DNA of 64,000 nucleotides from Ruminococcus sp. Its GTDB lineage: Bacteria > Bacillota > Clostridia > Oscillospirales > Ruminococcaceae. Positions 32,840-57,967 of the stretch are shown in pieces. A model generated the notes under the pieces. It worked only from the letters and a program-made list of their open reading frames with translations. It was not told where the DNA came from and searched no databases. The stretch is from NCBI GenBank assembly GCA_017542125.1, contig JAFXXU010000058.1, positions 124,001 through 188,000 on the forward strand, read 5' to 3'. The position numbers and the translations under genes were made by a program. Each line of letters opens with the position of its first letter. Position 1 is the first letter of the stretch.

Positions 32840-33484
32840 ATGAGTATGGTCACGATCACAACCGATATCACAGTCCCTACAAGCGGAGAGACAACATATC
32901 TTCGTGTGTTCGCAAAACAGCACGATGCCGCCTCCCGTTTTCTCCGTGTAAGGCTCACAGACGGAGACGGCAATGGCATAACCGTAAACGGCGACGGGAT
33001 AGATGTCGTAATCAGGGCGACCAAACCGGACAAGACTCAGATCCTCGATGAGTGTACGATAGATCAGCAAGGACGCATCATAGCTCCTCTCTCTGAACAA
33101 TTCCTTGCTTGTGCAGGAGTTGTTAAGACCGATATAGCTATCTACTCCAACAACGAGGAGCTGCTTTCGAGTTCGGCTTTTGACGTTGAGGTAGTCAAAT
33201 GTGCCTACGATGAAGATGCTGTCATATCGACGAATGAGTTTTCAGCTCTCACCGCTGCGCTGTCACAGGCGCAGAATGCGACAGGGATAGCTACCGAGGC
33301 TGCTACTGCTGCTCAGACCGCTACCGAAGCGGCAGATACAGCTACCTCGGCTGCTAACTCTGCTGCATCTGACGCTCGAGACGCAATAGACGCTATTTAT
33401 CACGACAAGAACTTCCTGCTCACCGTAAATGAAGATACAAGTCTAACGCTGACCTACGACCCGGACGAGTTGGAAGAAACTTAA
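32840..33484 (+). CDS. BppU-like baseplate upper protein
   Basis: 214 residues. The N-terminal ~115 residues are beta-rich with RVRLTDGDGNGITVNGDGID and VVIRATKPDKT, like BppU/phage baseplate N-terminal domains. An Ala/Thr-rich coiled-coil stalk follows (about 135-180), then a C-terminal ~27-residue tag, DAIYHDKNFLLTVNEDTSL onward. The same tag ends the gene at 33719, which suggests a shared docking element. Confidence 0.7.
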   Translation: MSMVTITTDITVPTSGETTYLRVFAKQHDAASRFLRVRLTDGDGNGITVNGDGIDVVIRATKPDKTQILDECTIDQQGRIIAPLSEQFLACAGVVKTDIAIYSNNEELLSSSAFDVEVVKCAYDEDAVISTNEFSALTAALSQAQNATGIATEAATAAQTATEAADTATSAANSAASDARDAIDAIYHDKNFLLTVNEDTSLTLTYDPDELEET

Positions 33485-33502
33485 TGTAAAGGAGGGATTG
33501 CA

Positions 33503-33715
33503 TTGATCACTTTAATTGAGACCAAGAACAGAGATATCAATGGAAATGCCGTATTTGAGCTGCGCGGCAAGTCCACCGATACAAAACCGACTGTCTCTTT
33601 CGGAGGCAGCACTATCGGCAACGGCTCGTCGTTTTTTGAGATAGACACATTTAAGCTGTTTATGTACGACGGCGAGACCGGAACTTGGATGACCGGTGAT
33701 ACTGAGGAGGTGTAG
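33503..33715 (+). CDS. Small baseplate-region protein, 70 aa
   Basis: TTG start with an AAAGGAGG site at good spacing. Beta-rich and Gly/Thr-rich (VSFGGSTIGNGSSFFEID, then MYDGETGTWMTGD), ending in EEV. It lies between two genes that share a C-terminal tag, just before the DGR target. Function unknown; probably part of the adhesion module. Confidence 0.55.
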   Translation: MITLIETKNRDINGNAVFELRGKSTDTKPTVSFGGSTIGNGSSFFEIDTFKLFMYDGETGTWMTGDTEEV

Positions 33716-33718
33716 TCA

Positions 33719-33907
33719 ATGGACATCGAAACTTATGGAGCTTGCAGACATCTTGTAGGAAGAGCAGAGACAGCAGCAGACGCAGCGGAAAAAGCTGCTT
33801 CCGATGCGAACGAGGCTATCGACGCTATTTTCCACGACAAGAACTTTCTGCTTACCGTGAACGAGGACAACAGCCTTACACTCACTTATGACCCGGACGC
33901 AGAATAA
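33719..33907 (+). CDS. Small tail protein sharing the C-terminal tag of the BppU-like protein
   Basis: 62 residues: a short Ala-rich coiled coil (ETAADAAEKAASDANEAID) and then AIFHDKNFLLTVNEDNSL onward, nearly identical to the end of the 32840 protein. It looks like a mini version of that protein's stalk and tag. It comes directly before the DGR target gene and may help mount it. Confidence 0.6.
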   Translation: MDIETYGACRHLVGRAETAADAAEKAASDANEAIDAIFHDKNFLLTVNEDNSLTLTYDPDAE

Positions 33908-33925
33908 ATTGAGGAGGAATGAAAA

Positions 33926-35335
33926 ATGTCAGTATCATCCATTGACCTTGTCAAAGACTCGACTATGGCGGGTGGGCTCGACAAGCTCGCAATCTACCTT
34001 GCAGCCATAGCAAAGAACACAGGCGGCGTTGATATGAACGGTTGGAAATACGTTCAGTCTCTCGTTCGCACAGGTCTTCACAAGGAGTTGATCAAAGTAG
34101 GTGACATCTTCGTCATCGAGAAAGAGACAGCTATGACCGTAAGAGTCGGCACCACAGAAGCTGAGGGCACACCAGGCATTACCGCAGCATCTGTTGTAGC
34201 TCTCACATTCATTGGCAAGATAGGTACTGCTCATAGCGGAGACTATGAGTTCGAGTACGACGGTGCAGAGTGGCACTACGGCGGCTCTGCTGTCGATCTC
34301 GCAGAGTATGGAATATCCGTGACAGGTACACCCGCACACGGAGACGTTGTTATCGTTCACGAAACTGCTGCACAGATGCCCTACATCGTACTCGGTATAG
34401 ATCAGGACACCCCCTCTGACTCACAGTTTACTCACAGCCTCACCCTCGGCGCTGTTGATGTCTATGCAGAGATGCAGTTTGACGCTCCTGAGGCGTTCTA
34501 CTATGCAAAGAACGGACTCGCTGCCGGAGATTACTATTTCACCATAGATCCTACGTATGACGCCTCCTACAACACATACAAGGATACCGGATATCAGTTC
34601 ACCCTCACGCAGGACGTTCCTGCGGGAGGCGTTCTCACGTTCCCGTGGGGTTCCAACGCGCAGGCAAGCGGAGTTAAGGTATCTGCTTACGCTTCTCGTT
34701 CTGCAACGACAGCGACTGAAAGCGTTTCCGTATCTTCCGGCACTACCGGAACAAACCTCGGTCAGCTCACGACAGCGGGAGACCCGGAGAACAACCTCAA
34801 CTCCATTCAGAGAGTTCGCTACGGCTCCAACAACTGGAAGCAGTCTGCTATGAGGCAGTATCTCAACAGCGACAAAGCAGCCGGAAACTTCTGGACCCCG
34901 CAGACGAAGTTTGACAGACCGCCCTCTTGGAACGCATCCGCTGACGGATTTCTCAGGGGAGTTGATCCCGATTTCGTTTCCGTACTCGGAAAGGTAAACA
35001 AGATCACAGGCCTGAATACCGTCACCGACGGAGGCGGCACCGAGACCACGAGCGAAAAGGTGTTCCTGCTCTCCCATACCGAAGCATACTGCGGAGGCTC
35101 AGAGGGTACTGCCTACGATTACTACAAGAATTACAGCGACCTCTCCGCAGCCGGAAGCGGTGCAGATACCAACCGTATCAAGTATCGCAACGGTACGGCG
35201 AAATACTGGTGGCTTCGTTCCCCGTCCCCCTCGTACGCCTACGTCGTGCGCTACATCCATCCGTCCGGCACGTTGAACTACATCAGCCTCGCCAGCAGTG
35301 CTTTCGGCGTCGTCCCCGCTTGCGTAATCGTATAA
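33926..35335 (+). CDS. DGR target protein 1: tail adhesin with C-terminal lectin-like variable domain
   Basis: 469 residues. The N-terminal ~250 residues are a beta-rich tail-attachment and spacer region. The C-terminal ~190 form a DUF6273/formylglycine-enzyme-like C-type lectin domain: WKQSAMRQYLNS and KVFLLSHTEA, then YWWLRSPSPS and GVVPACVIV at the end. Residues ~428-466 are encoded by VR1, where Asn codons of the template have become Tyr, Val, His, Ser, Leu, Ile and Phe. It closes the tail module, so it is probably the receptor-binding tip diversified by the adjoining DGR. Confidence 0.92.
   Translation: MSVSSIDLVKDSTMAGGLDKLAIYLAAIAKNTGGVDMNGWKYVQSLVRTGLHKELIKVGDIFVIEKETAMTVRVGTTEAEGTPGITAASVVALTFIGKIGTAHSGDYEFEYDGAEWHYGGSAVDLAEYGISVTGTPAHGDVVIVHETAAQMPYIVLGIDQDTPSDSQFTHSLTLGAVDVYAEMQFDAPEAFYYAKNGLAAGDYYFTIDPTYDASYNTYKDTGYQFTLTQDVPAGGVLTFPWGSNAQASGVKVSAYASRSATTATESVSVSSGTTGTNLGQLTTAGDPENNLNSIQRVRYGSNNWKQSAMRQYLNSDKAAGNFWTPQTKFDRPPSWNASADGFLRGVDPDFVSVLGKVNKITGLNTVTDGGGTETTSEKVFLLSHTEAYCGGSEGTAYDYYKNYSDLSAAGSGADTNRIKYRNGTAKYWWLRSPSPSYAYVVRYIHPSGTLNYISLASSAFGVVPACVIV
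35207..35324 (+). repeat. DGR variable repeat 1 (VR1)
   Basis: 118 nt aligned with the template repeat at 35829-35943. All 16 substitutions fall on template adenines (A to T, G or C); no non-A base differs. One extra codon (CTC) follows the Asn-codon run, where the template has four AAC codons and VR1 has five codons. The GC-rich 3' end (GGCGTCGTCCCC) is the likely initiation-of-mutagenic-homing region. Confidence 0.93.
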
Positions 35336-35345
35336 TCCATAATCA

Positions 35346-35359
35346 GCCGCGACAGCGGC
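35346..35359 (+). other. GACA-loop hairpin after VR1
   Basis: GCCGC-GACA-GCGGC, a 5-bp stem with a GRNA-type tetraloop, 21 nt after the end of VR1. DGRs such as that of Bordetella phage BPP-1 need a hairpin/cruciform with a GRNA loop just after VR for target recognition. The same loop occurs after VR2. Confidence 0.75.
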
Positions 35360-35383
35360 GTTACTGAAAGGAGCACAAAGAAT

Positions 35384-35803
35384 ATGTCCAAACCGCTTTT
35401 ACAGCGAGAACAGCGAGATTTGATGCTGATAACCAAAGCTCACGAGCTTGCGTCTTACACTTGCAAGATATGCACGAACGAGAAAAACTTTCCGAAGCGT
35501 TACCGTTGGTGCATCACGAACAAGATAGTCGAGAGCGCAGTAGACATTGACCGTTTTCTTAACGCTGCCAATGCCGTAAACTGTGAGAACGACTCCGACG
35601 GTATGCTTTATCGGCTGAGACTGTATTATCAGAAGCGAGCTCTCGCAGAGACATATTCTTTGATTGCCTCTATTGAGGTGGCAAAGTTCACTTTCGGTAT
35701 TCCTACCGACAGACTCGAGTATTGGTCGAAGATGATTTACGCTGTTCAGAATTATACGAGAGCGTGGATAAAGTCCGACAAAGAAAGATTTGGTAAGAAA
35801 TAG
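35384..35803 (+). CDS. avd: DGR accessory variability determinant (Avd-like four-helix protein)
   Basis: 139 residues, all helical and basic, with FPKRYRWCITNKIVESAVDI (about 34-53), YRLRLYYQKRALAETYSLI and a basic end, matching bAvd/four-helix-bundle proteins. Avd forms a pentamer that binds the reverse transcriptase and the template RNA and is required for cDNA synthesis. It lies between target 1 and the template repeat, the usual place. Confidence 0.9.
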   Translation: MSKPLLQREQRDLMLITKAHELASYTCKICTNEKNFPKRYRWCITNKIVESAVDIDRFLNAANAVNCENDSDGMLYRLRLYYQKRALAETYSLIASIEVAKFTFGIPTDRLEYWSKMIYAVQNYTRAWIKSDKERFGKK

Positions 35804-35828
35804 GGTGAACGCTGTATTTCTGTTCCGT

Positions 35829-35943
35829 TGGTGGCTTCGTTCCCCGAACCCCTCGAACGCCAACAACGTGCGCAACATCAATCCGTCCGGCACGTTGAAC
35901 AACAACAACGCCAACAATGCTAACGGCGTCGTCCCCGATTGCG
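35829..35943 (+). repeat. DGR template repeat (TR)
   Basis: 115 nt with 13 AAC/AAT codons in the frame matching the target, including a run of four AAC. It ends in GGCGTCGTCCCCGATTGCG; both variable repeats have GCT where TR has GAT. The template lies 26 nt after avd and about 150 nt before the RT start. It is transcribed and copied with adenine mutagenesis into VR1 and VR2. Confidence 0.94.
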
Positions 35944-36096
35944 AGAAAAGCCCGAATAAAGTAAGCCCGAAAAGCCGAAATCTGTGCGCTCGCGCAAGGA
36001 GCGTTTATCCTAACCCTAAAGAGGTGAAACTATAACGTCGATGCTGCTTACTTCGCAAAGCAAGTAATTGCAGCTATACACGGCGTTTTGAGTGTA
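35944..36096 (+). ncRNA. TR-RNA 3' spacer region
   Basis: In the model DGR the ~140-nt stretch between template and RT gene is part of the template RNA, binds RT-Avd and primes cDNA synthesis. Here the equivalent 153 nt hold a small hairpin (CGCTC...GAGCG, about 35986-36003) and no gene with a good ribosome site. The role is by analogy. Confidence 0.55.
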
Positions 36097-37149
36097 ATGA
36101 ATGACATAACCATAAGAGAGCTTGTGTGCAGCTATGACAGCCTATATCATGCCTTGCAAAAGTGCAAGAAAGGCGTTATGTGGAAGGACTCTGTAGCGGG
36201 CTTCGTGAAGAACGGACTCATAAACTGTCTGCTCCTCAAAGAAGATCTCGACAGCGGACGGTACAAGTTAGGCAAGTATTCCGTCTTCGAGATCACCGAA
36301 CCCAAGCGCAGAGTCATTGTCTCTACGAGGATAAAAGACAGAGTATTCCAAAGGAGCCTCTGTGACAACTATCTCACCGAGGCATTGTCAAAGTCGTTCA
36401 TCTATGACAACTGCGCCTGTCAAGTCGGCAAAGGTACTGATTTCGCACGAAAGCGTCTGAAAGTACATCTGCAACGGTTTTACAGGAAGCACGGTCTCAA
36501 CGGTTATGTATTAAAATGCGACATAAAGAGCTTTTTCGGCTCCACGCCGCACGATGTAGCAATATCAGCGGTAGCCAAACGAGCAAAGGATCAATGGGCT
36601 GTGAGCGAGGTTGCAAGGATAGTCAACAGCTTTACGCAAGGCGAAGACCCTGCTATCGGTATGGGCTTAGGCTCGCAGGTGACTCAGCTTATAGAGCTGT
36701 CAGTCCTTGATACCCTCGATCACATCATCAAGGAGCGTCTGCATATCCAGCATTACGTCAGATATATGGACGACTTCATTCTTATTCACGAGGACAAGCA
36801 TTATCTCCGCTGCTGTTTGTCCGTCATCGAAGAAGAGATCCGCAAGCTCGGTCTGCGTCTCAGCGAAAAGAAGACGCAGATTTTCCCTGTTAAACAGCAG
36901 ATACATTTTCTCGGCTTCTCATACCGTCTCACCTCCACCGGAAAGGTCCTTTTGAAGCTCCTTCCGTGCAAAGTTGTGAGAGAGCGCCGAAAGCTAAAGA
37001 AGCTCGTTCAGCTCTGCCGTAAAGGGATAATGACTAAAGAACACGCCGATTTCTGCTTCACGAGTTGGAAAGCTCATGCAAGCAAAGGAAATTGTTACAA
37101 GCTCATTCAAAGTATGACCCAATATTACAACGATTTATGGAGGTACTGA
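36097..37149 (+). CDS. brt: DGR reverse transcriptase
   Basis: 350 residues. Motif A CDIKSFF holds the catalytic Asp (about 142). The DGR-specific motif IGMGLGSQVTQL has its SQ at about 193-194 (group II intron and retroviral RTs have QG here), and YMDD is at 223-226, followed by the thumb segment IHFLGF. It copies the template RNA with errors at adenine. The ATG at 36097 is used; a TTG three codons earlier is possible, and neither has a clear ribosome site. Confidence 0.95.
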   Translation: MNDITIRELVCSYDSLYHALQKCKKGVMWKDSVAGFVKNGLINCLLLKEDLDSGRYKLGKYSVFEITEPKRRVIVSTRIKDRVFQRSLCDNYLTEALSKSFIYDNCACQVGKGTDFARKRLKVHLQRFYRKHGLNGYVLKCDIKSFFGSTPHDVAISAVAKRAKDQWAVSEVARIVNSFTQGEDPAIGMGLGSQVTQLIELSVLDTLDHIIKERLHIQHYVRYMDDFILIHEDKHYLRCCLSVIEEEIRKLGLRLSEKKTQIFPVKQQIHFLGFSYRLTSTGKVLLKLLPCKVVRERRKLKKLVQLCRKGIMTKEHADFCFTSWKAHASKGNCYKLIQSMTQYYNDLWRY

Positions 37150-37151
37150 AT

Positions 37152-37331
37152 ATGTTTAAGTATATCCCTCTCGAGAAGCAGATAGCCGAGGAGCGCAAGA
37201 AGAATGCGAAGCTCACGGCAGAGAACAATCAGCTCAGAGGCGACGTTGACTTTCTTGCTATGATGACCGACGTTGACCTTGACAATGATGAAATAGAGGA
37301 AAGCGAGGTGGATGAAGATGACGCACAGTAA
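37152..37331 (+). CDS. Small coiled-coil phage protein, 59 aa
   Basis: Starts 2 nt after the RT stop and overlaps the XkdX-like gene. A short coiled coil (EKQIAEERKKNAKLTAENNQL) is followed by an acidic tail. Such small proteins often lie between tail-fibre genes and XkdX/holin genes. Function unknown. Confidence 0.6.
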   Translation: MFKYIPLEKQIAEERKKNAKLTAENNQLRGDVDFLAMMTDVDLDNDEIEESEVDEDDAQ

Positions 37332-37476
37332 GAAATTTGCAAAGGTAAAATCCTATTATGACAATGGCATTTGGGCTATCAACCGTGTGTACGAAGCCGT
37401 AGGTCACGGTTGGATCACCGCAGAGGAGTACAAGGAAATCACAGGCTTCGACTACGACAGCGGAGAGGAGACCTAA
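37312..37476 (+). CDS. xkdX: XkdX-family protein, 54 aa
   Basis: It matches the XkdX pattern: VKSYYDNGIWAINRVYEAV, then GWITAEEYKEITGFDY. These short proteins of PBSX-type phages sit between tail and lysis genes; their job is unknown. It overlaps the preceding gene by 20 bp. Its stop shares a base with the holin start. Confidence 0.8.
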   Translation: MKMTHSKKFAKVKSYYDNGIWAINRVYEAVGHGWITAEEYKEITGFDYDSGEET

Positions 37477-37868
37477 TGAAGTACATCATTATGATGCTGA
37501 TAGTCTTGGGCTTGATTATCGCTGATTATCTCACAGGCGTAATCAAGGCGTATGTAGCAGAGGATCTTTCGAGTCGCAAGATGCGGCTCGGAGGCCTCAA
37601 CAAGTTTTCGGAGATGCTTGTAATGGGCGTCTCCGTTGGCTTCGAGGTAGGAATGGACAAGCTCGGAGAGTTCGCCAACACTCCTGAACTCGCAGGAGTT
37701 GTCGGTTCCGTAACCGCAACAGGAGTTTTTGCCTACATAGCCTTAATGGAGATCATCTCGATATTTGAAAACTACTCCGAGATCAATCCTGACGCCAAGT
37801 GGATAAAGAAATTCGTCAAGCGTTTGAAAATCAGCAATGAAAATGAAGACGAAGACGAGGAGGAATGA
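37476..37868 (+). CDS. Phage holin (toxin secretion/phage lysis family)
   Basis: 130 residues. IIMMLIVLGLIIADYLTGVIKAY (about 3-25) is a membrane helix with the DYLTG motif of the phage_holin_4 family. RKMRLGGLNKFSEML and two further hydrophobic segments (VMGVSVGFEVG, VTATGVFAYIALMEIISIF) follow, with a charged C-tail. It makes the membrane lesion that lets the endolysin reach the wall. Endolysin gene follows after 3 nt. Confidence 0.9.
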   Translation: MKYIIMMLIVLGLIIADYLTGVIKAYVAEDLSSRKMRLGGLNKFSEMLVMGVSVGFEVGMDKLGEFANTPELAGVVGSVTATGVFAYIALMEIISIFENYSEINPDAKWIKKFVKRLKISNENEDEDEEE

Positions 37869-37871
37869 TAT

Positions 37872-38813
37872 ATGGCTTATTCGAGCTTAGTCAACTATGT
37901 AAGCAACAAGAAGACGAACAACTTCAACTACCCGAGAAATCATGTCATCGACAGGATCACCATTCATCACGCTGCGAACGGGTCCGGCTGCAACAGAGGG
38001 TATGCAGCCAATACCTTACAAGCCATATTCGACTCTGTCGGCAGAAACGGCTCCTGCAACTATGCTATTGACTCGAATGGTAACATCGGACTTATGCTCG
38101 AGGAGCAGTACAGATCGTGGTGTACCAACTCGCAGTCGAATGACTATCGAGCTATCACGATAGAGTGCGCAAACGACGGAGGAGACCCCGATTGGCACGT
38201 TTCCGACAAAGCTCTTGCCTCGATTATCAAGCTCTGCGCAGACATCTGCAAGAGGAACAACATCAAGGAGTTAAGATATACCGGCGACCTTACAGGTAAT
38301 CTCACGCTCCACAAGTGGTTTGCCGCTACCGGCTGTCCCGGTCCGTACCTCATCTCCAAGATGACGTACATAGCCTCCGAGGTGAACAAGCTCATCAAGA
38401 GCAGTTCTACTCCTGCTGCTACGCCGTCAAGCGGAACAAACACAAAGCCCGCTGCCGATAAGATTTACAGGGTCCGTAAGTCGTGGACTGATGCAAAGTC
38501 GCAGATCGGAGCATATAAGACTTTAGCCAACGCAAAGAAAGTTTGCAAAGAGGGCTATAAGGTGTTCGACTCCTCCGGCAACGTCGTTTACGAGCCCGCT
38601 GCTGCTTTTCAGCCTTATCTCATTAAGGTCGTATGTGAAGCTCTCAATATCAGAAAAGGAGCAGGGACAGGCTATGCTGTTGTTTCGACAATAGCGAAGA
38701 ACGGAGTTTATACCATTGTTGCCGAGAAAAAGGTTGCTGGACAAATGTGGGGAAAGCTGAAATCCGGTGCCGGTTGGATATGTGTTGAGCCACAGTTCGT
38801 AAAGAAAGTATGA
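37872..38813 (+). CDS. N-acetylmuramoyl-L-alanine amidase endolysin with C-terminal SH3 domain
   Basis: 313 residues. The amidase_2/PGRP-type catalytic domain (about 5-180) has the zinc residues in ITIHHAANGSG and LHKWFAATGCPG. A Ser/Thr/Pro linker follows, then a SPOR/DUF-like piece (about 196-240), then a bacterial SH3 domain (LNIRKGAGTGYAVVSTI...AGWICVEPQFVKKV). It cleaves the wall at the end of infection. Directly after the holin. Confidence 0.92.
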   Translation: MAYSSLVNYVSNKKTNNFNYPRNHVIDRITIHHAANGSGCNRGYAANTLQAIFDSVGRNGSCNYAIDSNGNIGLMLEEQYRSWCTNSQSNDYRAITIECANDGGDPDWHVSDKALASIIKLCADICKRNNIKELRYTGDLTGNLTLHKWFAATGCPGPYLISKMTYIASEVNKLIKSSSTPAATPSSGTNTKPAADKIYRVRKSWTDAKSQIGAYKTLANAKKVCKEGYKVFDSSGNVVYEPAAAFQPYLIKVVCEALNIRKGAGTGYAVVSTIAKNGVYTIVAEKKVAGQMWGKLKSGAGWICVEPQFVKKV

Positions 38814-38845
38814 TGAATTTTTCGCCGTCTGATGCGTATATATAT

Positions 38846-38935
38846 TCCCTTTACTTTCCTTTACTTTACTTTACTTTACTTTAGGGATAAATCCAAAGAA
38901 AAACCATAGTTTATCCGAGATTTACTATCGTTTTT
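38846..38935. repeat. Degenerate inverted copy of the origin iterons
   Basis: A run of CTTTACTTTA repeats (about 38848-38884) precedes GGGATAAATCC and then TTATCCGAGATTTA. Read on the minus strand it gives the same order as the initiator-gene origin (GGATTTA-CC then AAAGTAAAGT iterons). It fills most of the gap between endolysin and the next gene. Secondary origin or remnant. Confidence 0.5.
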
Positions 38936-38967
38936 CCAAGAATAACTGAAAATGGAGGTGTTTTGCT

Positions 38968-39336
38968 ATGGAACACGATACAAGAGAGTTAGTGACCATT
39001 CAGAGAAGACACAATCTCAACAAGGTCTTTGCCGTTGACGGAGAGAACGTCGGCGAATGTGGAGCCAATCACGCTTACCTCATTATGTGCGACGACGAAC
39101 CTGTGCTGATCTACTTTCAGAACGGTCCTCGCAATGTGGAGGGCAGCGAGAGGGGGATCCTCGATGTCGATCTTCTCGAAATTGTCAGAGACAGACTCAA
39201 AGGCTTTCAGAGTGGCAAGTTCTCTTGCAGAGAAAACGCTTGTGCTCTCACTCACATTGAGGAAGCTCTTATGTGGATGAACAAGAGAGTCGAAGACAGA
39301 GCAGCAAGAAACGTTCTCGGAACCAACGAGAAATAA
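38968..39336 (+). CDS. Phage protein with Acb2/Tad1-like C-terminal hairpin (candidate anti-defence sponge)
   Basis: 122 residues. The N-terminal part ([34 protein letters not shown]) is a conserved phage domain. The C-terminal helical hairpin has [19 protein letters not shown], which resembles the LTHLEEAxMW(A/N)K motif of Acb2/Tad1-type proteins that bind cyclic nucleotides or Thoeris signals. It is the last gene of the late transcript, a common spot for anti-defence genes. The family is often labelled "ABC transporter ATPase" in databases, which its sequence does not support. Function is inference. Confidence 0.6.
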
Positions 39337-39341
39337 AGACT

Positions 39342-39386
39342 AAGCCCGGATGCGGAGAAATAACCGCAGTCCGGGCTTTTCTTTTT
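39342..39386 (+). terminator. Late-operon terminator 1
   Basis: AAGCCCGGA.TGCGG pairs with CCGCA.GTCCGGGCTT (14 bp with one bulge) around an 8-nt loop, followed by TTCTTTTTT. One of two strong terminators in a row after the late operon. Confidence 0.88.
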
Positions 39387-39401
39387 TGAATAAGAATAGT
39401 T

Positions 39402-39446
39402 GAGCCCGGTTGCGATCAAAACGCAATTCGGGCTCTTTTTGCGTTT
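39402..39446 (+). terminator. Late-operon terminator 2
   Basis: GAGCCCGG...GCG pairs with CGC...TTCGGGCTC, followed by TTTTTGCGTTTT. Lies 15 nt after the first terminator and insulates the accessory unit. Confidence 0.85.
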
Positions 39447-39468
39447 TATGTGAACTCATAGTGTATAT

Positions 39469-39667
39469 TGTGAACAAATAGTAGTAAATTTGTTCTATGG
39501 CACGGAAAGAGACTGCCTAATACAATTACACCTTTTGCTCTATCGCGTCTTATGGAGGCGTTTATGTTGCTCTATGGCTGGATCATCGAAGAAGAAATGA
39601 CGATCTTCGTTTTTTGGATAGCAAACTGATAGTTTTGTTAATATTTAGTTAAATATCTCAAATTTGC
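39469..39667 (+). repeat. Conserved regulatory element, copy 1 (upstream of accessory unit A)
   Basis: It begins with a 20-bp stretch identical to copy 2 (46300) and contains a perfect dyad GAACAAAT...ATTTGTTC (39472-39495). It shares AATACAATT, a TTAT-loop stem region and a GCTCTA motif with copy 2. The promoter box comes 199 bp after the element start (200 bp in copy 2). A weak hairpin with TTTTTT (39587-39615) may end a short transcript. No ORF of note. With the promoter and untranslated leader this explains the ~400-nt gene-free stretch. Confidence 0.65.
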
Positions 39668-39696
39668 TTGTATGTTACGGCTATGTGTGTTAGAAT
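39668..39696 (+). promoter_or_regulatory. Promoter of accessory unit A with flanking dyad
   Basis: TTGTAT (39668-39673), 17-bp spacer ending TGT, TAGAAT (39691-39696): an extended -10 promoter. TATGTGT before the -10 and ACACATA about 30 bp later form an inverted repeat over the start site, a likely repressor operator. The promoter at 46500 has the same design. Confidence 0.6.
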
Positions 39697-39744
39697 TAAA
39701 ATACGGAATAAAATTACACATACGCAAGGCAAGGAGGAATGGCT

Positions 39745-39951
39745 ATGAAGAAATACGCAGCACTCGTCAAAGATGAAAACGGCAACGAAATGTTCTTCGG
39801 AGAAACGCCCGGCGAATGCCAAAGGTGGTGTAAGGAACACGGAGTTACAGGAGAGAATGGAGAGTACATCGCAGAAGGAACATTCGACACCGAAAGCAGA
39901 TACTTCGATGTTGAAGATTACGCAGATATCAACACTAATTGGATATGGTAA
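39745..39951 (+). CDS. Small hypothetical protein, 68 aa
   Basis: First gene of accessory unit A. The ATG 8 nt after AAGGAGG is chosen; an ATG 6 bp upstream is too close to it. Acidic, with a Cys/Trp segment (GECQRWCKEHG) and a terminal DINTNWIW. No family recognised. Confidence 0.55.
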   Translation: MKKYAALVKDENGNEMFFGETPGECQRWCKEHGVTGENGEYIAEGTFDTESRYFDVEDYADINTNWIW

Positions 39952-39966
39952 AAGGAGGAATTGATT

Positions 39967-40416
39967 ATGATGATGTCAGAGTTTATTGAAAGAACAGGCT
40001 TCGAGCCCACAGTAGAAGAGTACAGAGCAATCGAGGACGAGTACATGGGCGGCAACGATGACAAGGACACGTTCTGCAAGGCTTGGAAAAAGAACGGCGG
40101 CATTCAGAGGCTCACGAGGGCGAGAAAGACAAGGATCGAGAACCTCGAAAGCAACGTCAGGATCCTCGAAAAAGAAAAGGCAGAGATCAAGGAAGAAAGA
40201 AACAGGATCAGAGGAGTTTTCAACGACTCGAAGAAAATGATAGAGGACCTTGAAAAAGAGAATGCATCGCTGAAAGCGAACCTTGAATACAGGACTGCTA
40301 AGGCTGAACACATAGAGAAAGAGATAGAGGAGCTTAAAGCTCGGATCGCTGAATACGAGAAGATCAAAGAACAGCTCGACGCAGTAAAGAACCTGATAGC
40401 AGTCCTCTCGAAGTAA
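39967..40416 (+). CDS. Coiled-coil hypothetical protein, 149 aa
   Basis: N-terminal ~45 residues (FIERTGFEPTVEEYRAIEDEY) look like a small domain found in several phage proteins. Residues ~55-140 are one long coiled coil (NLESNVRILEKEKAEIKEER...EEIEELKARIAEYEK-type). AAGGAGG site. Probably forms a rod or dimer. Function unknown. Confidence 0.6.
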   Translation: MMMSEFIERTGFEPTVEEYRAIEDEYMGGNDDKDTFCKAWKKNGGIQRLTRARKTRIENLESNVRILEKEKAEIKEERNRIRGVFNDSKKMIEDLEKENASLKANLEYRTAKAEHIEKEIEELKARIAEYEKIKEQLDAVKNLIAVLSK

Positions 40417-40513
40417 GCAGATGTTTTGCCGGAGGCAGGGGGTCAACGCTCCTGCTTCTGACAAAGCACCTGAAAGGTGCTGAAAATATAAAAAACGAAA
40501 CGGAGGTCGTATT

Positions 40514-40978
40514 ATGGCAAATTTACAAAGAAGTCTTGATGAAATGAAAGCGATATGTTCGAGAAGAGGAAGTTATTACTTTGAACCTGATACTGTAAGG
40601 TTTTGGGGTGGTAAAGTACATGATCCTGCAAACAAATACGGGCTTTTCATAGAAAGTTATGACAACTTCGACAGAAGTAGAAAGCTCTTTGCAGTTAAGT
40701 TCTTCGGTCCCGACGGTTATATTATGGCAGTAGAGCCCGCTGAAATTGGCAGATCCTATGAACACTTTTGCTCATACAAGGATGCAAAACAGTTTAGGCA
40801 CAAACTGACTATAGCCTTGAACGGAGCAGCGAAAAATTTCAGAGAGGGGAAAGTTCTCAATAACCTTTACAGCATAGAGGAAGAGGGTCTGCACACCGGG
40901 ATCTACATTCTTTCAGACAATGAAGGAGACAGTATCAAGATCAACACAAATAATTTCGACCGTTTTATTTGCGGTTGA
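40514..40978 (+). CDS. Hypothetical protein, 154 aa
   Basis: ATG behind CGGAGG. A mixed alpha/beta single domain (GSYYFEPDTVRFWGGKVHDP, then LFAVKFFGPDGYIMAVEP) with a C-terminal IKINTNNFDRFICG. No signal or membrane segment, no known motif. Part of accessory unit A. Confidence 0.55.
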   Translation: MANLQRSLDEMKAICSRRGSYYFEPDTVRFWGGKVHDPANKYGLFIESYDNFDRSRKLFAVKFFGPDGYIMAVEPAEIGRSYEHFCSYKDAKQFRHKLTIALNGAAKNFREGKVLNNLYSIEEEGLHTGIYILSDNEGDSIKINTNNFDRFICG

Positions 40979-41013
40979 TGAATGATGAGCGGCGACTTAT
41001 AAGGAGATAGGTT

Positions 41014-41154
41014 ATGTATCAGAATAAAGAACACGGAAACATCCTTACCTACGAGCAGATGCTTGTTGAGGCATCAGAACTTTACGACTACGGAGATCCG
41101 ACAAACTGCATCGGTTTAGACGAGTATTACATCAAGGTCAATGAGGAGGAATGA
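41014..41154 (+). CDS. Small hypothetical protein, 46 aa
   Basis: ATG behind AAGGAGA, ending 3 nt before the next start. Acidic and Tyr-rich (LYDYGDPTNCIGLDEYYIK). The spacing and ribosome site support it as a real gene although it is short. Function unknown. Confidence 0.5.
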   Translation: MYQNKEHGNILTYEQMLVEASELYDYGDPTNCIGLDEYYIKVNEEE

Positions 41155-41157
41155 TCT

Positions 41158-41652
41158 ATGAGAGACAGCACGGTAGTTTTCAAGGAGCTTGAACAAGCAA
41201 AGGCACAGCATAAGGCAGCGCTCGAAGAACTGTTCAAGGACACCTACAACCCCACGAAAGAGCAGTACAAGGGCATCCACGAACTTGACAGAAGAATTGA
41301 CGATCTCGAATTTGAGCTTATCAAGGAGCGCAGGAGAGAGATCAAGGTCGGAGACGGCTGCACGCTCGTCCTGTGGACTGATAAAGAGGCCTATACCGTT
41401 ATCAGAAAGGGCAAGAAAATGATCGTGATGCAGAGAGACAAGGCTATCAAGGACCCGAGCTTCAAGCCCGAATGGATCACAGGAGGCTTCTCTGCAATCT
41501 GCACCAACAATTCCGATCAGAGCTACACCTACGAGAGAGACCCCAACGGCTCGACCATAAGAGCTTTTTGGAGCGAAGTCAATGGATGCTATATGCACAG
41601 CGGCTGCAAGGTCATCAACGGCAGGCACGAGTTCTATGATTATAATTTCTGA
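41158..41652 (+). CDS. Hypothetical protein, 164 aa
   Basis: A helical N-terminal half (ELEQAKAQHKAALEELF...RIDDLEFELIKERRRE) is followed by a beta-rich half (VGDGCTLVLWTDKEAYTVIR, FWSEVNGCYMHSGCK). The second half resembles small phage domains of unknown role. Part of accessory unit A; GAGGAG site. Confidence 0.55.
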   Translation: MRDSTVVFKELEQAKAQHKAALEELFKDTYNPTKEQYKGIHELDRRIDDLEFELIKERRREIKVGDGCTLVLWTDKEAYTVIRKGKKMIVMQRDKAIKDPSFKPEWITGGFSAICTNNSDQSYTYERDPNGSTIRAFWSEVNGCYMHSGCKVINGRHEFYDYNF

Positions 41653-41666
41653 AAGGAGGCTTTAGT

Positions 41667-41813
41667 ATGTCAGACGCAGAAAAACTGAAAAGGAGAATAC
41701 AAGAGTTCGTTAAGAACGATCTCGCTGTGTTCGGTAAAGTATCTGCCTCAACGATTGCTATGGCGCAAGCGTATGGCTTCAAGATCAAGAAGAACAAGGT
41801 GGTGAAGAAATGA
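41667..41813 (+). CDS. Small basic hypothetical protein, 48 aa
   Basis: ATG behind AAAGGAGG; its stop overlaps the next gene's start by 4 bp. Lys-rich and helical (EKLKRRIQEFVKNDLAVFG...), ending IKKNKVVKK. Such small basic proteins could bind nucleic acid; nothing specific is recognised. Confidence 0.5.
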   Translation: MSDAEKLKRRIQEFVKNDLAVFGKVSASTIAMAQAYGFKIKKNKVVKK

Positions 41814-42340
41814 ACAGCATCAGATTTACTCCCGAGGCGAAGAAGCAGATAGACGAAGCCTATAAAAAGTACATCTCCCTCGATGCAGTCTCCAAGAGGA
41901 AGATTAGGTTTTCGGACTATCTTTCCGAGTTCGTGGGAGGTTCCGACGTAGGACAGCTCACAGAGGTTCAGAAAGGCATATTTGCTTATGCTTTGGAAAA
42001 AGGAGACGTTGAGAGAACGTTCGCATATATGGTGTGCAACGGAAGAATAAGCCTCATAGCAGATATCGAGCAACTCCGCTTAAACACGATGATGTTCGAG
42101 TTTCCTGACAACGTGTCGAAGATGTCGCTTCTTGACTGCTCTCTCAAAGTCAAAGAGTATTACACCGGAAAAGCCAACCCCTCTGTTTATGGTAACAGAG
42201 ACGATCTTATCGAGTCGTATGTTAATATGTACGGCGGCCTTATTACGAGGTACTATCTCGCAGAGGGAAATGTAGAAAATGAAGAACTGCGTAGGCAGAA
42301 AGACGGCATAGCCTATGTTTATTTTCAGAAGGAGGACTAA
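41810..42340 (+). CDS. Hypothetical protein upstream of DGR target 2, 176 aa
   Basis: Mostly helical (FTPEAKKQIDEAYKKYISLD...TEVQKGIFAYALEKGDVER). Contains two short Cys-bearing segments (YMVCNGRISLI, LLDCSLKVKEYY). It ends 4 nt before the DGR target and overlaps the gene before it, so it is co-translated with target 2 and may be its partner. No known family. Confidence 0.55.
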   Translation: MNSIRFTPEAKKQIDEAYKKYISLDAVSKRKIRFSDYLSEFVGGSDVGQLTEVQKGIFAYALEKGDVERTFAYMVCNGRISLIADIEQLRLNTMMFEFPDNVSKMSLLDCSLKVKEYYTGKANPSVYGNRDDLIESYVNMYGGLITRYYLAEGNVENEELRRQKDGIAYVYFQKED

Positions 42341-42344
42341 GAAA

Positions 42345-42959
42345 ATGACCATTTTTGAAAAGATTTTCGCAGAACACAAAGATGAGATTGAGGAGTACAT
42401 CAAAGGAGTCATCAAGTCTGCTGTTGACGACATTAAGACAGAGTTCGCCCCCGGAGACCATTTCTCCTACAAAGGAGTCGAGTTCGTTGTTCTTGATGTG
42501 AACGAAGAACGGAACGAGCTGTTTGCTGTAACAGCGAACATAGTTCGCACTATGCTCTTTAGCGAAGATAACTGCAACGATTGGAGGAAGTCCGATGTAA
42601 GAGATTGGCTGAACACGGAGTTTCTCTATCAGATAGGAGAGGAAGACCTTATTGAGCAAGTTTCCGACCTCGTGGCAGACAATGGAGACAAAGCATACGG
42701 AGAATGCAAAGACTATGTGTCGCTTCTCTCCTGCGATCAGTACAGAAAGTACAGAGAGTTCATCCCTCGATACAAAGAAGATTGGGTGTGGACTCTTACT
42801 CCGTATAGCTGTGACCCCTCGTACGCCAACAGCGTGCGCGTCATCAATCCGTCCGGCACGTTGTACTACAACTACGCCTACGGTGCTCGCGGCGTCGTCC
42901 CCGCTTGTATGTATAATCTTAATAATCTTAAATCGCGCCGACAGGCGCATAAAGTCTGA
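42345..42959 (+). CDS. DGR target protein 2: small cytosolic-type lectin-fold protein with VR2
   Basis: 204 residues. N-terminal ~40 residues helical (FEKIFAEHKDEIEEYIKGVI). The rest is a DUF6273-like C-type lectin domain: YKGVEFVVLDVNEERNELFA, DWRKSDVRDWLN, CDQYRKYREFIP and the C-terminal GARGVVPACM. Residues ~157-188 are the variable repeat. There is no signal peptide, membrane segment or tail-attachment domain, and it lies in an accessory operon 7 kb from its RT, so it may be a second adhesin or an intracellular or secreted-by-lysis binder. The ATG behind AAGGAGG is used. Confidence 0.88.
   Translation: MTIFEKIFAEHKDEIEEYIKGVIKSAVDDIKTEFAPGDHFSYKGVEFVVLDVNEERNELFAVTANIVRTMLFSEDNCNDWRKSDVRDWLNTEFLYQIGEEDLIEQVSDLVADNGDKAYGECKDYVSLLSCDQYRKYREFIPRYKEDWVWTLTPYSCDPSYANSVRVINPSGTLYYNYAYGARGVVPACMYNLNNLKSRRQAHKV
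42813..42907 (+). repeat. DGR variable repeat 2 (VR2)
   Basis: 95 nt aligned without gaps to 35847-35941 of the template. All 14 differences are at template adenines, including AAC to GTC, CGC and TAC, AAT to GGT, and GAT to GCT in the homing region. It is not a duplicate of VR1: the two differ at many of the same adenine positions, so VR2 was written independently from the same template. Homology starts later than in VR1, at the ACCCCTCG segment. Confidence 0.92.
42935..42948 (+). other. GACA-loop hairpin after VR2
   Basis: GCGCC-GACA-GGCGC, 27 nt after the end of VR2. The stem sequence differs from that after VR1 but the loop is identical, which is what a conserved target-recognition cruciform would show. 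It lies inside the coding sequence (last codons of target 2). Confidence 0.75.
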
Positions 42960-42973
42960 AAGGAGTGCCTGAA

Positions 42974-43300
42974 ATGGAATATTCTTTGAGCAAGAAGTGT
43001 GCTGCAATAGCCTTGCATTACGGAGAAACACCGCAGCTGAAAATGATGATCGAAGAGAGCGCGGAGCTTACACAGTCTATCTGCAAGATGTTCAGATCTG
43101 TAAAAGGATCTGACGGAAAGTTGCCTGTTGAAGTTAGAAACCATTACATCGAGGAGCTTGCGGACGTACTGATAATGGCAGAACAGCTGATGATCCTGCT
43201 CGACGCAAGAGAGTCCACTTACCTTTACAACACTATGCGCTTCAAACTGCGCCGTCAGCTTGATAGGATAGAAAAAGAGGCGATAGCGAATGGCGAATAG
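42974..43300 (+). CDS. MazG-like nucleotide pyrophosphohydrolase-type protein
   Basis: 108 residues. IEESAELTQSICKMFR (about 29-44) and IEELADVLIMAEQLM (about 62-76) are the EExxE and ExxD halves of the MazG/dUTPase-like metal site on an all-helical scaffold. Phage MazG proteins hydrolyse NTPs/dNTPs and may lower alarmone or signal nucleotides. The ATG is 8 nt after AAAGGAG. Follows DGR target 2 directly. Confidence 0.75.
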   Translation: MEYSLSKKCAAIALHYGETPQLKMMIEESAELTQSICKMFRSVKGSDGKLPVEVRNHYIEELADVLIMAEQLMILLDARESTYLYNTMRFKLRRQLDRIEKEAIANGE

Positions 43301-43598
43301 TGATCTGAAAAAACTCGACGAAGGGCAGCTCGATCTGATGTGGAGCTTCCTTCGTGCGGGAATGGTCAAGCCGAATGTCGAGGCATTGAAAGAGATGTGC
43401 GATCAGCTGCGACAGGCTATGATACAAAAGACAGCAGGGCAACGTACTGATGATCCGTCTCGATATATCAGCTTTGAAGATCTCGGAACGATAATCAATA
43501 GCATTGTTATAGAAACAATGGCTCTGTTTTTGAGTGGCGACCTTGATTTGATATGCAAGCATAGAAAGGATGAAAACAATGGACAAAACCAAAATTGA
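43290..43598 (+). CDS. Hypothetical protein, 102 aa
   Basis: Overlaps the MazG-like gene by 11 bp and the next gene by 20 bp. Helical, Leu-rich (LDEGQLDLMWSFLRAGM, INSIVIETMALFLSGDLDLI). May be a partner of the MazG-like protein; no family recognised. Confidence 0.5.
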   Translation: MANSDLKKLDEGQLDLMWSFLRAGMVKPNVEALKEMCDQLRQAMIQKTAGQRTDDPSRYISFEDLGTIINSIVIETMALFLSGDLDLICKHRKDENNGQNQN

Positions 43599-44346
43599 AT
43601 GGTGCGACGCATCGTGGAACCCAATCACAGGATGTTATCACGGATGTGAATACTGCTACGCGAGGAAAATGGCAAAGCGTTTCGGAGAGAGCGCAAACTG
43701 CTATACTGTTGACGGAAATCACATCAAGTTTGGTGTGTGCGACGACAAGCCCATATACGAGATAGACAGAAAGCTGAACACTCCATACCCATTTGGATTT
43801 ACGCCGACGCTCCACAGGCATAAACTCTCGCAGCCTATAAAGTGGACAAGACCGAGAACTATCTTCGTTTGTTCAATGGCTGATCTGTTCGGTCAATGGG
43901 TGCCTGACAGATGGATTGAACTTGTATTCGATTTTTGTGCGTCTGCTCCGCAGCACAGATACCTGTTTCTTACGAAAAACCCTGACCGTTATGTCAGCCT
44001 CGCTCAAAGAAAGATGCTGCCGACAGGCGAGAACTTTTGGTATGGCTCGACCATAACAGACGCAGACACGCCGTATTTCTTTGATAGGTCGAAGAACAAA
44101 GAGTACAACACCTTCATAAGCGCAGAGCCTCTGCTCAAAGATACCGGCTACGGAGAATGTCACTCCGATTGGCTTATTTTAGGAGCAGAGACAGGGAACA
44201 GAAAAGGCAAGGTTGTTCCCGAAAAGACTTGGATTGATAATATATGCTATGCAGCCGACATCGAAAGGATCCCTGTGTTTATGAAAGATAGCCTCATACC
44301 TATTGTCGGAGAAGAGAATATGAGGCGAGAATTTCCGTGGAGGTGA
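43579..44346 (+). CDS. DUF5131 / phage Gp37-Gp68 family protein (radical-SAM-like)
   Basis: 255 residues. It starts IEWCDASWNPITGCYHGCEYCYA, whose C-x3-C-x2-C spacing matches a radical-SAM [4Fe-4S] site. FVCSMADLFGQWVPD, YLFLTKNPDRY, WYGSTI and WLILGAETGNRKGK follow, the usual block order of this phage family. The reaction is unknown; the family is common in phages and defence-linked regions. An in-frame ATG 9 bp upstream is possible. Confidence 0.85.
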   Translation: MDKTKIEWCDASWNPITGCYHGCEYCYARKMAKRFGESANCYTVDGNHIKFGVCDDKPIYEIDRKLNTPYPFGFTPTLHRHKLSQPIKWTRPRTIFVCSMADLFGQWVPDRWIELVFDFCASAPQHRYLFLTKNPDRYVSLAQRKMLPTGENFWYGSTITDADTPYFFDRSKNKEYNTFISAEPLLKDTGYGECHSDWLILGAETGNRKGKVVPEKTWIDNICYAADIERIPVFMKDSLIPIVGEENMRREFPWR

Positions 44347-44352
44347 AATATA

Positions 44353-44625
44353 GTGATACAGATTTCAGAAGAATTCTTCGGATCATTGGCTATCTGTGCT
44401 GTTAGATATTGTCAAGGCAGAATGACGTATATGCCTGAATGGGTGCGGGAAATAGTTAGACCGCATCTCAGAGAGCTTACCGACAAAGACCTCGCTGTGC
44501 TTATCAACGACTGCGAAGATCAGAGCAGGCGCAACTCCTATGGTGACGAGAAGATTGACAAGCCAGGCTGGATAAAGTGGGAGCAAGAGCTTAAAGCTGA
44601 GAGGGAGAGAAGGAGCAAACATTGA
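44353..44625 (+). CDS. Hypothetical phage protein, 90 aa
   Basis: GTG start with GGAGGTG at good spacing. Helical, with AVRYCQGRMTYMPEWVREIV and LTDKDLAVLINDCEDQ, a pattern I have seen in other phage small proteins without a known job. Basic C-terminus. Overlaps the next gene by 4 bp. Confidence 0.55.
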   Translation: MIQISEEFFGSLAICAVRYCQGRMTYMPEWVREIVRPHLRELTDKDLAVLINDCEDQSRRNSYGDEKIDKPGWIKWEQELKAERERRSKH

Positions 44626-44840
44626 GCGAAAAAACGAAAAATAGAATGCCCGATAGTGTTCCGTCCACAGAGTTTATTTCAGAATACACAGAAGTCAAAT
44701 GCAAGAAGTGCGGAAAAAAGTATAGCGATGAAATATACTATATGGCTTTTTGCAGTGATGACCATGGAATACACTATTGTCCCAACTGCGGAAGATTTAT
44801 TGTTTATAGCGAGTTTACCGGGACGAGCAGCAAGAATTGA
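44622..44840 (+). CDS. Small zinc-ribbon protein, 72 aa
   Basis: CKKCGKKY near residue 27 and YCPNCGRF near 52 make a classic zinc ribbon. TTG start overlapping the previous stop. Probably binds nucleic acid or a protein partner. Function unknown. Confidence 0.55.
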   Translation: MSEKTKNRMPDSVPSTEFISEYTEVKCKKCGKKYSDEIYYMAFCSDDHGIHYCPNCGRFIVYSEFTGTSSKN

Positions 44841-44899
44841 AACTGAAATTGAGATTTGTTTCAATCCTGTTGCAATCAATTAGGAAAGGATGATGAACA

Positions 44900-45241
44900 A
44901 TGACACGCGATGAAGTCATAGACTTGTTTCTTGTCAAACTCTGCGAGCATAGAAAAGCGGTCATAAACTTTATGAAAACTCATGATTGCGAACTGTGTTA
45001 TTACGAGGTTGGATGCAGAAATGATCGTGTCTTTCTGACCATTCACTTCAAGTCTAATTATGTAAACGAGTTTTACGGTGCGGAAGACTCCTTCAACGTT
45101 TCTTTTCTTGCTGACGAAGAAGACGAGAATGTGCAAATGAGCACCGTTGAAACAAGCTCCAATTATATCAGACATCGTGTTCTCCAAAACGCAGTCAGAG
45201 TTCTTAAAAGCAAGGAGGGAAAACGAAATGACACGCGATGA
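44900..45241 (+). CDS. Hypothetical protein, 113 aa
   Basis: ATG behind AAAGGATG. N-terminal MTRDEVIDLFLVKL recalls the start of the next gene (MTRDDIETLAWQGD), so the two may share a short N-terminal motif. The middle is alpha/beta (YEVGCRNDRVFLTIHFKS). Overlaps the next gene by 14 bp. Function unknown. Confidence 0.5.
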   Translation: MTRDEVIDLFLVKLCEHRKAVINFMKTHDCELCYYEVGCRNDRVFLTIHFKSNYVNEFYGAEDSFNVSFLADEEDENVQMSTVETSSNYIRHRVLQNAVRVLKSKEGKRNDTR

Positions 45242-45614
45242 CATAGAAACCCTTGCTTGGCAAGGCGACGTTCTTCCCGCAGGATCCTCTGATGATGAAA
45301 CACTGTATTTCTACATCGTCTGCAAGGTCTATGACGATCTCCGTAAGGAAGCCCTCGGGAGGTCGGAAGCAAGGTCCCTAAAAACAAAGATCAGGATGCT
45401 CTTCGAGAGAGTTGAGCGCTTGGAGCCAATAGCAAAGAGCAACACGAAGCTCGTCATAGAGCTCAACAAGCTCACAGCTCCAAGAGCAGACCTCGTTAAA
45501 ATGGATAAGGAGCAGCTCCTGAACGTCATTCACAAAATGGAAGGACTTGTCTGTGGACTGATTAAAAGCATCGAAGATGAAGTGCCTGAATTTCTTAAAC
45601 AGGAGGTGACATAG
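45228..45614 (+). CDS. Hypothetical protein, 128 aa
   Basis: ATG behind AAGGAGGG. Helical: a charged N-terminal half and a coiled-coil-like part (KTKIRMLFERVERLEPIAKS, then MDKEQLLNVIHKMEGL). It lies just before the promoter of the HTH gene. Function unknown. Confidence 0.5.
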   Translation: MTRDDIETLAWQGDVLPAGSSDDETLYFYIVCKVYDDLRKEALGRSEARSLKTKIRMLFERVERLEPIAKSNTKLVIELNKLTAPRADLVKMDKEQLLNVIHKMEGLVCGLIKSIEDEVPEFLKQEVT

Positions 45615-45631
45615 TGATACACAAGAAAGAT

Positions 45632-45660
45632 TTGACATTCTCCGACTCGTGTGTTATAAT
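45632..45660 (+). promoter_or_regulatory. Perfect-consensus promoter for the HTH regulator
   Basis: TTGACA (45632-45637), 17-bp spacer ending GTGTGT, TATAAT (45655-45660). It places the start of transcription near 45667, about 20 nt before the ATG of the HTH gene, so this regulator can be expressed independently of the unit it sits in, for example in the lysogen. Confidence 0.8.
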
Positions 45661-45685
45661 TGACAAAACGAATGGGAGTGATGAT

Positions 45686-46156
45686 ATGGAGCCGGTAGGC
45701 GAGATCATACGCAGAGCTATGAAGCAGAAAGGCGTTACCGTCAATGAGCTTGCAAGGAGAGTAGGCAAGGCTCAGAACACGATCTCAATGGCTTTGAAGA
45801 AATCGAATATGAGCTACGAAACCTTTGCTTCGTACATGGAAGCTCTCGGCTACAAGATAGTCTATACCGACTCCGAAGACGAGGTTCTCAGAGACGAGAA
45901 GCACAGAGAGGCTCCTCCGACGAAGATAGTCATAGACAGAGTTCAGTATGACAGCAGAACTGCTGAGCCGATCATTTGTGCAGAGCAGACAGACGGACTC
46001 TATGCGGAGCTTTATCGGAAAACATCTCGAGAGTATTTCATCGTGTACTTTGAGAAAGGCAGACGAGGAACTATCAACCCGGTCAGCGAGGATGCTGCAA
46101 GGTCCTTTTTGTACAAGTATAAATCCTCTGACGATATAGACTTACTGCTCGATTAA
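45686..46156 (+). CDS. XRE-family HTH regulator of the accessory region
   Basis: 156 residues. Residues ~5-55 are an HTH domain (GEIIRRAMKQKGVTVNELA, then GKAQNTISMALKKSNMSYE). The C-terminal ~80 residues form a beta-rich domain (YAELYRKTSREYFIVYFEKG). Its own perfect promoter and a terminator right after it make a single-gene unit. It lies between the two accessory units with matching operator-like repeats, so it is the best candidate for the repressor acting on those repeats. That link is inference. Confidence 0.78.
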   Translation: MEPVGEIIRRAMKQKGVTVNELARRVGKAQNTISMALKKSNMSYETFASYMEALGYKIVYTDSEDEVLRDEKHREAPPTKIVIDRVQYDSRTAEPIICAEQTDGLYAELYRKTSREYFIVYFEKGRRGTINPVSEDAARSFLYKYKSSDDIDLLLD

Positions 46157-46225
46157 GCGGGCATAAGAGGCTGTACAAGCGTTTCAAAGCAAAGCAACCT
46201 AAAATCCACCACCGAACAAGTAATT

Positions 46226-46272: not shown

Positions 46273-46299
46273 GAGCATTTGTTTCTTAATTGTTTCAAC

Positions 46300-57931: not shown

Positions 57932-57967
57932 TCTGTCTGAATTGAAGAATTACGGAGGTATAATTAT

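Follow-up and report, generated by a model that had tools for sequence, protein, structure and literature searches.

A prophage diversity-generating retroelement of Ruminococcus sp. with one template repeat and two variable repeats, the second in a small DUF6273 gene remote from the cassette

The best-studied phage diversity-generating retroelement (DGR), that of BPP-1, has one target and acts through a tail protein to switch host tropism. Can a single DGR also write a second gene that lies several kilobases away, and what would such a gene do? The question is raised by a stretch of 64,000 nucleotides of Ruminococcus sp. (assembly GCA_017542125.1, contig JAFXXU010000058.1, positions 124,001 to 188,000; the window in what follows), which is a portion of a prophage. 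It carries a reverse transcriptase (RT), the accessory protein Avd, a template repeat (TR) and two variable repeats, VR1 in a gene of the tail region (target 1) and VR2 in a small gene (target 2) outside the tail module, 7 kb from the cassette (Table 1). A preliminary description had proposed that the one TR gave rise to both VRs. This is borne out here, as all mismatches in the alignments of TR with VR1 (16/16) and with VR2 (13/13) were at template adenines, and the locus presents the characters by which a DGR is recognized: an RT near the TR, adenine differences, Avd, and a hairpin after the VRs that is absent after the TR. The two-target relation is confirmed as an observation, and the interpretation then given to it is partly supported.

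The TR and VR1 were compared in a gapped alignment of 115 positions with 29 adenines (hypergeometric P 4.5e-12), and the TR and VR2 in an ungapped one of 94 positions with 28 adenines (P 1.2e-8). Substitutions at non-adenine sites of VR2 had been named beforehand as a sign of a dead copy, and none was found at the 66 such positions of the 94-nt core. Of the numbers first given, the 16 substitutions of VR1 stand, but those of VR2 come to 13 in the clean match and not to 14, the fourteenth (35847) being just beyond it, at the edge of homology and adjoining a G-to-T difference at 35846. Likewise, it was right that all substitutions were at template adenines, although three extra nucleotides of VR1, within an (AAC)4 run, had been overlooked; because of this insertion an ungapped TR/VR1 reading breaks down past approximately 35907. 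A whole-genome scan with the TR core pattern (three mismatches or fewer) yielded no sites besides TR, VR1 and VR2. As had been stated for RT and Avd, the prophage is served by one set, with a single strong RT match. Elsewhere in the genome, contig C88 bears a second, distant DGR with its own TR/VR pair (L075 9764-9874 and 10535-10645), and a DGR similar to it was seen in G006, of the same genus.

Both VRs share an A-to-C change at 35938. In a set of 67 TR/VR pairs from the window and related loci, many of which are close relatives, the 3'-most mismatch was A-to-C in 40 pairs, with a GA(T/C)T context in 39 of these 40 (counted by eye). On this basis, 35938 looks like a fixed difference between donor and acceptor and not a mutagenised base, which would leave 15 mutagenised adenines in VR1 and 12 in VR2. 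In the same set, a VR exactly 3 nt longer than its TR in the AAC run was observed in 4 pairs (VR1 of the window at 35276-35290, L036, L043 and L048) and a shorter one in none; for changes of three bases in AAC repeats, a model based on slippage is already mentioned in PMC12875486.

In the gapped register, and with 35847 counted, nine of the 29 TR adenines were altered in both VRs, five of them to different letters and four (35856, 35901, 35917 and 35938) to the same one; seven were altered in VR1 alone, five in VR2 alone and eight in neither. This split pattern supports that VR1 and VR2 were written independently from one TR, as first proposed. Gene conversion or recombination with another VR, instead of reverse transcription from this TR, could also be considered as the source of VR2, given the three substitutions in common besides 35938, but the VR1 insertion is absent from VR2, and five adenines with different letters plus twelve altered in only one VR are hard to reconcile with such an origin, which we regard as extremely improbable.

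It could also be that VR2 was once written by the TR and is now a dead or accidental copy. According to PMC3240598, VRs of phages are followed at 4-34 bp by GC-rich hairpins, with stems of 7-10 bp and GRNA loops of 4 nt, which in BPP-1 are reported to be needed for efficient homing. A pair of such hairpins was spotted by eye and the window was then scanned with the loop rule of that paper: there were two hairpins with a GRNA loop and five or more G/C in the stem, one past each VR, and none after the TR or on the other strand of the window. In 60 dinucleotide shuffles, the mean was 0.1 and the maximum 1. Other hairpins with 4-nt loops (stem of at least five, at least four G/C) numbered ten in the window. 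Moreover, both VRs are followed by an AATC-rich flank. Since the sole two hairpins of that kind directly follow VR1 and VR2, VR2 looks like a genuine acceptor. The 0/66 non-adenine changes make it unlikely that VR2 is a pseudotarget; its intact reading frame and ribosome-binding site, its own hairpin and the recurrence of the layout in ten phages (see below) also argue against a dead copy, whereas the short stem of five bp and the lack of turnover between two identical copies of a related prophage would be in keeping with it. We thus assign to this possibility a low probability.

Ten phages with this layout were compared: that of the window, L024, L025, L026, nd4, nd12, FP_Toutatis, G019, G020 and G051. 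RT relatives were found at 50 loci in viral contigs, with an adenine-biased TR/VR pair at 45 of them in the same scan, and at three of these loci (L024, L025 and L026) a small gene 6.6-10.7 kb downstream contains a second VR; since many loci are short, counts of two VRs among them are lower bounds. The other six phages were added through relatives of target 2. Over the ten, 122 of the 128 mismatches between TR and VR2 were at template adenines (P < 1.6e-5 in each phage), and VR2 was always in a small target 2 relative, 6.6 to 37 kb from the TR in the linear order of the records. As the phages were picked for having a match, these numbers describe them and do not estimate a frequency. The DUF6273 cut-off was passed by nine of the ten small proteins (window plus 8/9 relatives), that of G020 scoring 13.8 bits, under 23.5. 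At E 1e-8, relatives of target 2 were present in 7 of the 396 sampled genomes of the family, its own included. The G051 contig (L160-L163) carries two prophage copies. These were compared over 28 kb, in three pieces that take in the TR and both VRs, and were identical; from the small gene to the RT, the second copy is longer by about 8 kb.

This count excludes small genes for which a TR was not proven. Two loci (L085 and L093) showed remote TR/VR pairs once the RT side was added; no remote pair was found for G021/L094 or G018/L083, and the remaining ones of the 26 loci examined gave, within the locus, no TR/VR pair that involves the small gene. In seven of the 26 (L086-L091 and L103) a pair of neighbouring small VR genes lies directly beside the TR, and in L099 a single one; these were taken as cassette targets and not as remote ones, so that small targets occur within the cassette as well. 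L033, with two VRs in two adjacent large genes, was also left out. Among 16 records searched, an RT match was absent in 6 that have target 2 relatives (G016, G017, G022, G023, G024 and G031), which may be fragments or have lost the DGR. The small genes left uncounted neighbour a methyltransferase (L164), helicase and polymerase (L165), a phosphohydrolase-type family (L080) or unknown families (L081). When viral contigs were scanned with target 2 as a single protein, 9 pattern-matching stretches emerged, none of them confirmed; the TR pattern gave none in viral contigs, and a shorter one gave 27 stretches of varied taxa in genome contigs.

The comparison was extended to the acceptor side. Hairpins were present at both VRs in four of the ten phages (loops GACA/GACA in the window and L024, GTCA/GTCA in L025 and GACA/GGTA in L026), with identical loops in three of these four. 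The 45 nt after VR1 and VR2 were more alike within than between phages, the partner of the same phage being the best match in 7/10 (exceptions: L025, rank 2; G019, rank 4; G020, rank 7). The observed sum was not attained in any of 20,000 permutations, with flank starts set by hand, some flanks coding, and kinship among phages outside the permutation model. The VR2 flank scored low against the TR flank (mean 3.25 v. 13.55). In the literature searched, we found no description of matched acceptor flanks of two targets.

What kind of protein is target 2? With 204 aa, it matched Pfam PF19789 (DUF6273; 25.1 bits, E=1.8e-5, cut-off 23.5) and phrog_9958 (E=2.4e-46), with no other Pfam domain above cut-off. 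Its peak 19-aa hydropathy was 0.71, with no membrane-grade segment. The residues altered in VR2 include five changes of Asn to Tyr, the others being to Ser, Val, Gly and Arg, and would suit a binding face. Against solved structures, the profile of the small proteins matched residues 175-260 of the IgA protease PDB 9qa6 (E 3.5e-6), plus 12 weak matches (E 0.04-0.87), mostly to S100 chains; a DUF6273 N-terminal domain is named in a gut IgA protease in PMC12402451. Target 1 contains the same domain (PF19789, 80.1 bits, E=2.3e-22; phrog_19280, E=3e-51).

The genes around target 2 bear on where it may act. In eight of the nine relatives it lies among DNA-replication, recombination or methyltransferase genes. 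According to the deposited annotations, the nd4 gene is next to PolIII alpha and 5-7 kb ahead of ssb and dnaC, and gp24 of FP_Toutatis is between methyltransferases and replication initiation; the ninth relative, nd12, has hypothetical neighbours and is uninformative. In PHROG scans of selected larger open reading frames (ORFs; 20 proteins of five loci and 4 of L160), the target 2 gene was flanked by helicase and endonuclease (L024), before helicase and DNA polymerase (L025), after helicase (L026), before RecE, RecT and replication initiation (G020), and between DNA methyltransferase and replication initiation (G019 and G051). In the window, VR2 is within a gene cluster separate from the cassette, as first described, and the neighbours of target 2 (MazG-like and DUF5131 proteins) fit a non-structural cluster, not a replication one. 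We therefore favour that target 2 is a small intracellular DUF6273 protein, made with non-structural genes, early or accessory, on account of this gene context and of the lack of a membrane segment. PMC10743442 suggests, for the homologous target 2 of nd4 and nd12, a role like that of Mtd, that is, target 2 would be a second receptor-binding or adhesion protein of the virion, packaged even if encoded apart from the tail genes. The domain common to both targets agrees with this, but the company of DNA-metabolism or methyltransferase genes in 8/9 relatives, the lack of another Pfam domain above cut-off in target 2 of the window, and the nd12 copy (L069 19734-20624), which is fused to DUF3310 (PF11753, E 2.5e-16; the fusion is also in PMC10743442), speak against it and make a virion protein unlikely.

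We believe that the following is the most plausible course of events. RT and Avd would copy the TR transcript into complementary DNA (cDNA) randomised at adenines, and this cDNA would replace the 3' part of any gene whose acceptor matches, which here would be VR1 of the tail-region protein and also, in trans, VR2 of the small gene. VR2 would be recognized because it has an acceptor of its own, made up of the VR-type base at 35938, the GC hairpin with a GACA loop and the AATC-rich flank. Its flank would act as acceptor, the RT would reach VR2 in trans, and both VRs may be currently active. Target 1 most likely varies the outer binding surface of the phage. The TR/VR relations, the hairpins and the gene context can be read directly from the sequence, and we consider this two-target explanation as a whole probable. 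Target 2 would most likely be a variable protein that binds a ligand inside the cell; a role in counter-defence or one that involves a host factor is our leading guess. The broader proposal that in many phages one DGR works on two fronts, with an outer binder and an early intracellular lectin-like protein that tracks a variable opponent (host defence or rival phage factor), the second gene being targeted through an acceptor flank similar to the one that follows VR1 in that phage, is more tentative, and we put it forward as a possibility of rather modest standing.

Several observations weigh against these proposals. The second target of the window is between the lysis genes and the right end, away from replication genes, and the neighbour scans of the relatives covered selected larger ORFs, with no random-gene control. 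The stems in the window are of 5 bp versus 7-10 bp in PMC3240598, a GNNA-loop hairpin after either VR is absent in 6 of the 10 two-target phages (nd4 VR2 has a sole stem, with a 6-nt loop, 61 nt downstream), and the G019 and G020 flanks are not best-matched. Target 2 can be absent, as PMC10743442 reports both targets in 39 of 54 nd4-like genomes, and none of the 15 other genomes examined from its genus had it. A near-identical relative of the prophage was not found, and the VRs of the two identical G051 prophage copies are identical and uninformative on turnover. Lastly, PMC11792537 reports no read-level VR variation for the prophage Lelie and none in limited data for the prophage CP11.

Table 1. 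Features of the DGR, its two targets and the neighbouring genes (positions in the window)
Feature	Position	Strand	Remarks
Target gene 1 (469 aa)	33926..35335	+	Tail region, after tape measure and tail genes; C-terminal DUF6273
VR1	35207-35324	+	Inside ORF 33926-35335; 16 changes at TR adenines plus 3-nt insertion
Hairpin GCCGC-GACA-GCGGC	35346..35359	+	Starts 22 nt after VR1; acceptor-like signal
Avd accessory protein	35384..35803	+	phrog_3206 'Avd protein of DGR', E=4e-17
TR	35829-35943	+	29 adenines, mostly in AAC/AAT codons
DGR reverse transcriptase	36088..37149	+	Pfam RVT_1, E=4e-19; phrog_1423, E=3e-86
Endolysin (amidase)	37872..38813	+	Amidase_2, E=4e-19; phrog_7698; between DGR and VR2 gene cluster
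Leader before VR2 cluster (402 nt)	39337..39738	+	Similar stretch at 46214-46578
Compact gene cluster with VR2 gene	39739..46156	+	From gene gaps; gene list set by hand
Target gene 2, small DUF6273 protein	42345..42959	+	AGGAGG 9 nt before ATG
VR2	42814-42907	+	Inside ORF 42345-42959; 13 changes at TR adenines
Hairpin GCGCC-GACA-GGCGC	42935..42948	+	Starts 28 nt after VR2; acceptor-like signal
MazG-like nucleoside triphosphate (NTP) pyrophosphohydrolase	42965..43300	+	Immediately 3' of target 2; phrog_2245, E=4e-21
DUF5131 protein	43570..44346	+	PF07505, E=9e-45; phrog_2045
Helix-turn-helix regulator	45614-46156	+	Cluster end; phrog_1373, E=1e-10

The prophage includes a serine recombinase that lies directly before the window (L073 16648-18393) and, near the left end, an exonuclease and a DnaC-type loader. 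Genes for terminase, portal, capsid, tape measure and tail come next, and downstream of these are target 1, Avd, TR, RT and endolysin. A megablast search of phages with 33000-46000 gave no match. The Pfam matches of the Avd gene to bAvd (E=0.009) and of the MazG-like gene to MazG (E=0.029) were under cut-off. The leaders at 39388-39745 and 46214-46578 are alike over approximately 360 nt, upstream of consecutive gene clusters, and have in common a palindromic GAACA...TGTTC site (read by eye), perhaps a common phage operator, and a promoter-like end. A family related to the DUF5131 protein is also near the VR2 gene of G019 (L085:4340-5212). The DUF5131 protein matched the PADLOC candidate families PDC-M41B and PDC-M30B; target 2 had no PADLOC match. 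Two neighbouring ORFs of the tail region carry at their ends a 75% identical repeat (33362-33467 and 33794-33899). Past the VR2 cluster there is a queuine tRNA-ribosyltransferase gene at 51900, probably of the host, and at 56912-60379, likely past the prophage end, two genes with nearly full-length matches to PHROG families of no known function (phrog_19793 and phrog_21682).

If true, the recurrence of second targets among genes of DNA metabolism would imply that phages also invest targeted hypermutation in a binder that acts inside the cell, and the ligand of such a binder should therefore vary between hosts. Matched acceptor flanks could reveal remote targets overlooked by cassette-centred surveys; fragmented assemblies are reported to hide such targets (PMC8144416).

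The preliminary description had called a remote second target unusual. This does not hold, since nine further phages share the layout, two of them already published as two-target, and DGRs of such kind are in print (PMC10743442, PMC11792537, PMC8008677 and PMC12629997). PMC10743442 describes nd4 and nd12 phages with two DGR targets, target 2 being modelled as a C-type lectin (nd4_tgt2 and nd12_tgt2), and reports that all 21 VR2 adenines are mutable among genomes of nd4-like phages. As in the window, one TR writes there a large surface-type target and a small DUF6273 one, and in the records the TR-to-VR2 distance is 11.7 and 14 kb; in contrast, their large target is a tentaclin with the VR near the N-terminus, and they lack a GNNA-loop acceptor hairpin. 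By their published descriptions, the Faecalibacterium prophages Lelie and CP11 can also be likened to the window phage, with large plus small DUF6273 targets and, in CP11, both VRs varying among cognate genomes (PMC11792537); DGRs had been found earlier in Toutatis (PMC5883640). Quimbyvirus has a distal second target that lies close to methyltransferases and a nuclease and is suggested to be non-structural (PMC8008677), and a distal second VR is also described for four cultured gut prophages (PMC12629997): by description, these share a second target far from the cassette and near methyltransferase genes, although that of Quimbyvirus is on the opposite strand. Published proposals see the remote target either as a receptor binder like Mtd or as having a part in an arms race. 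With regard to action in trans, which the preliminary description took as shown and which here is a reading of the sequence, a plasmid-borne BPP-1 DGR is reported to act on plasmid and chromosomal reporters (PMC12875486). The BPP-1 DGR shares with that of the window the TR, VR, Avd and RT and a GRNA-loop hairpin after the VR, and differs in the longer stems, of 7-10 bp, given for the phage set of PMC3240598. The two-target design is, in sum, already known in gut phages, and the prophage of the window adds a further case.

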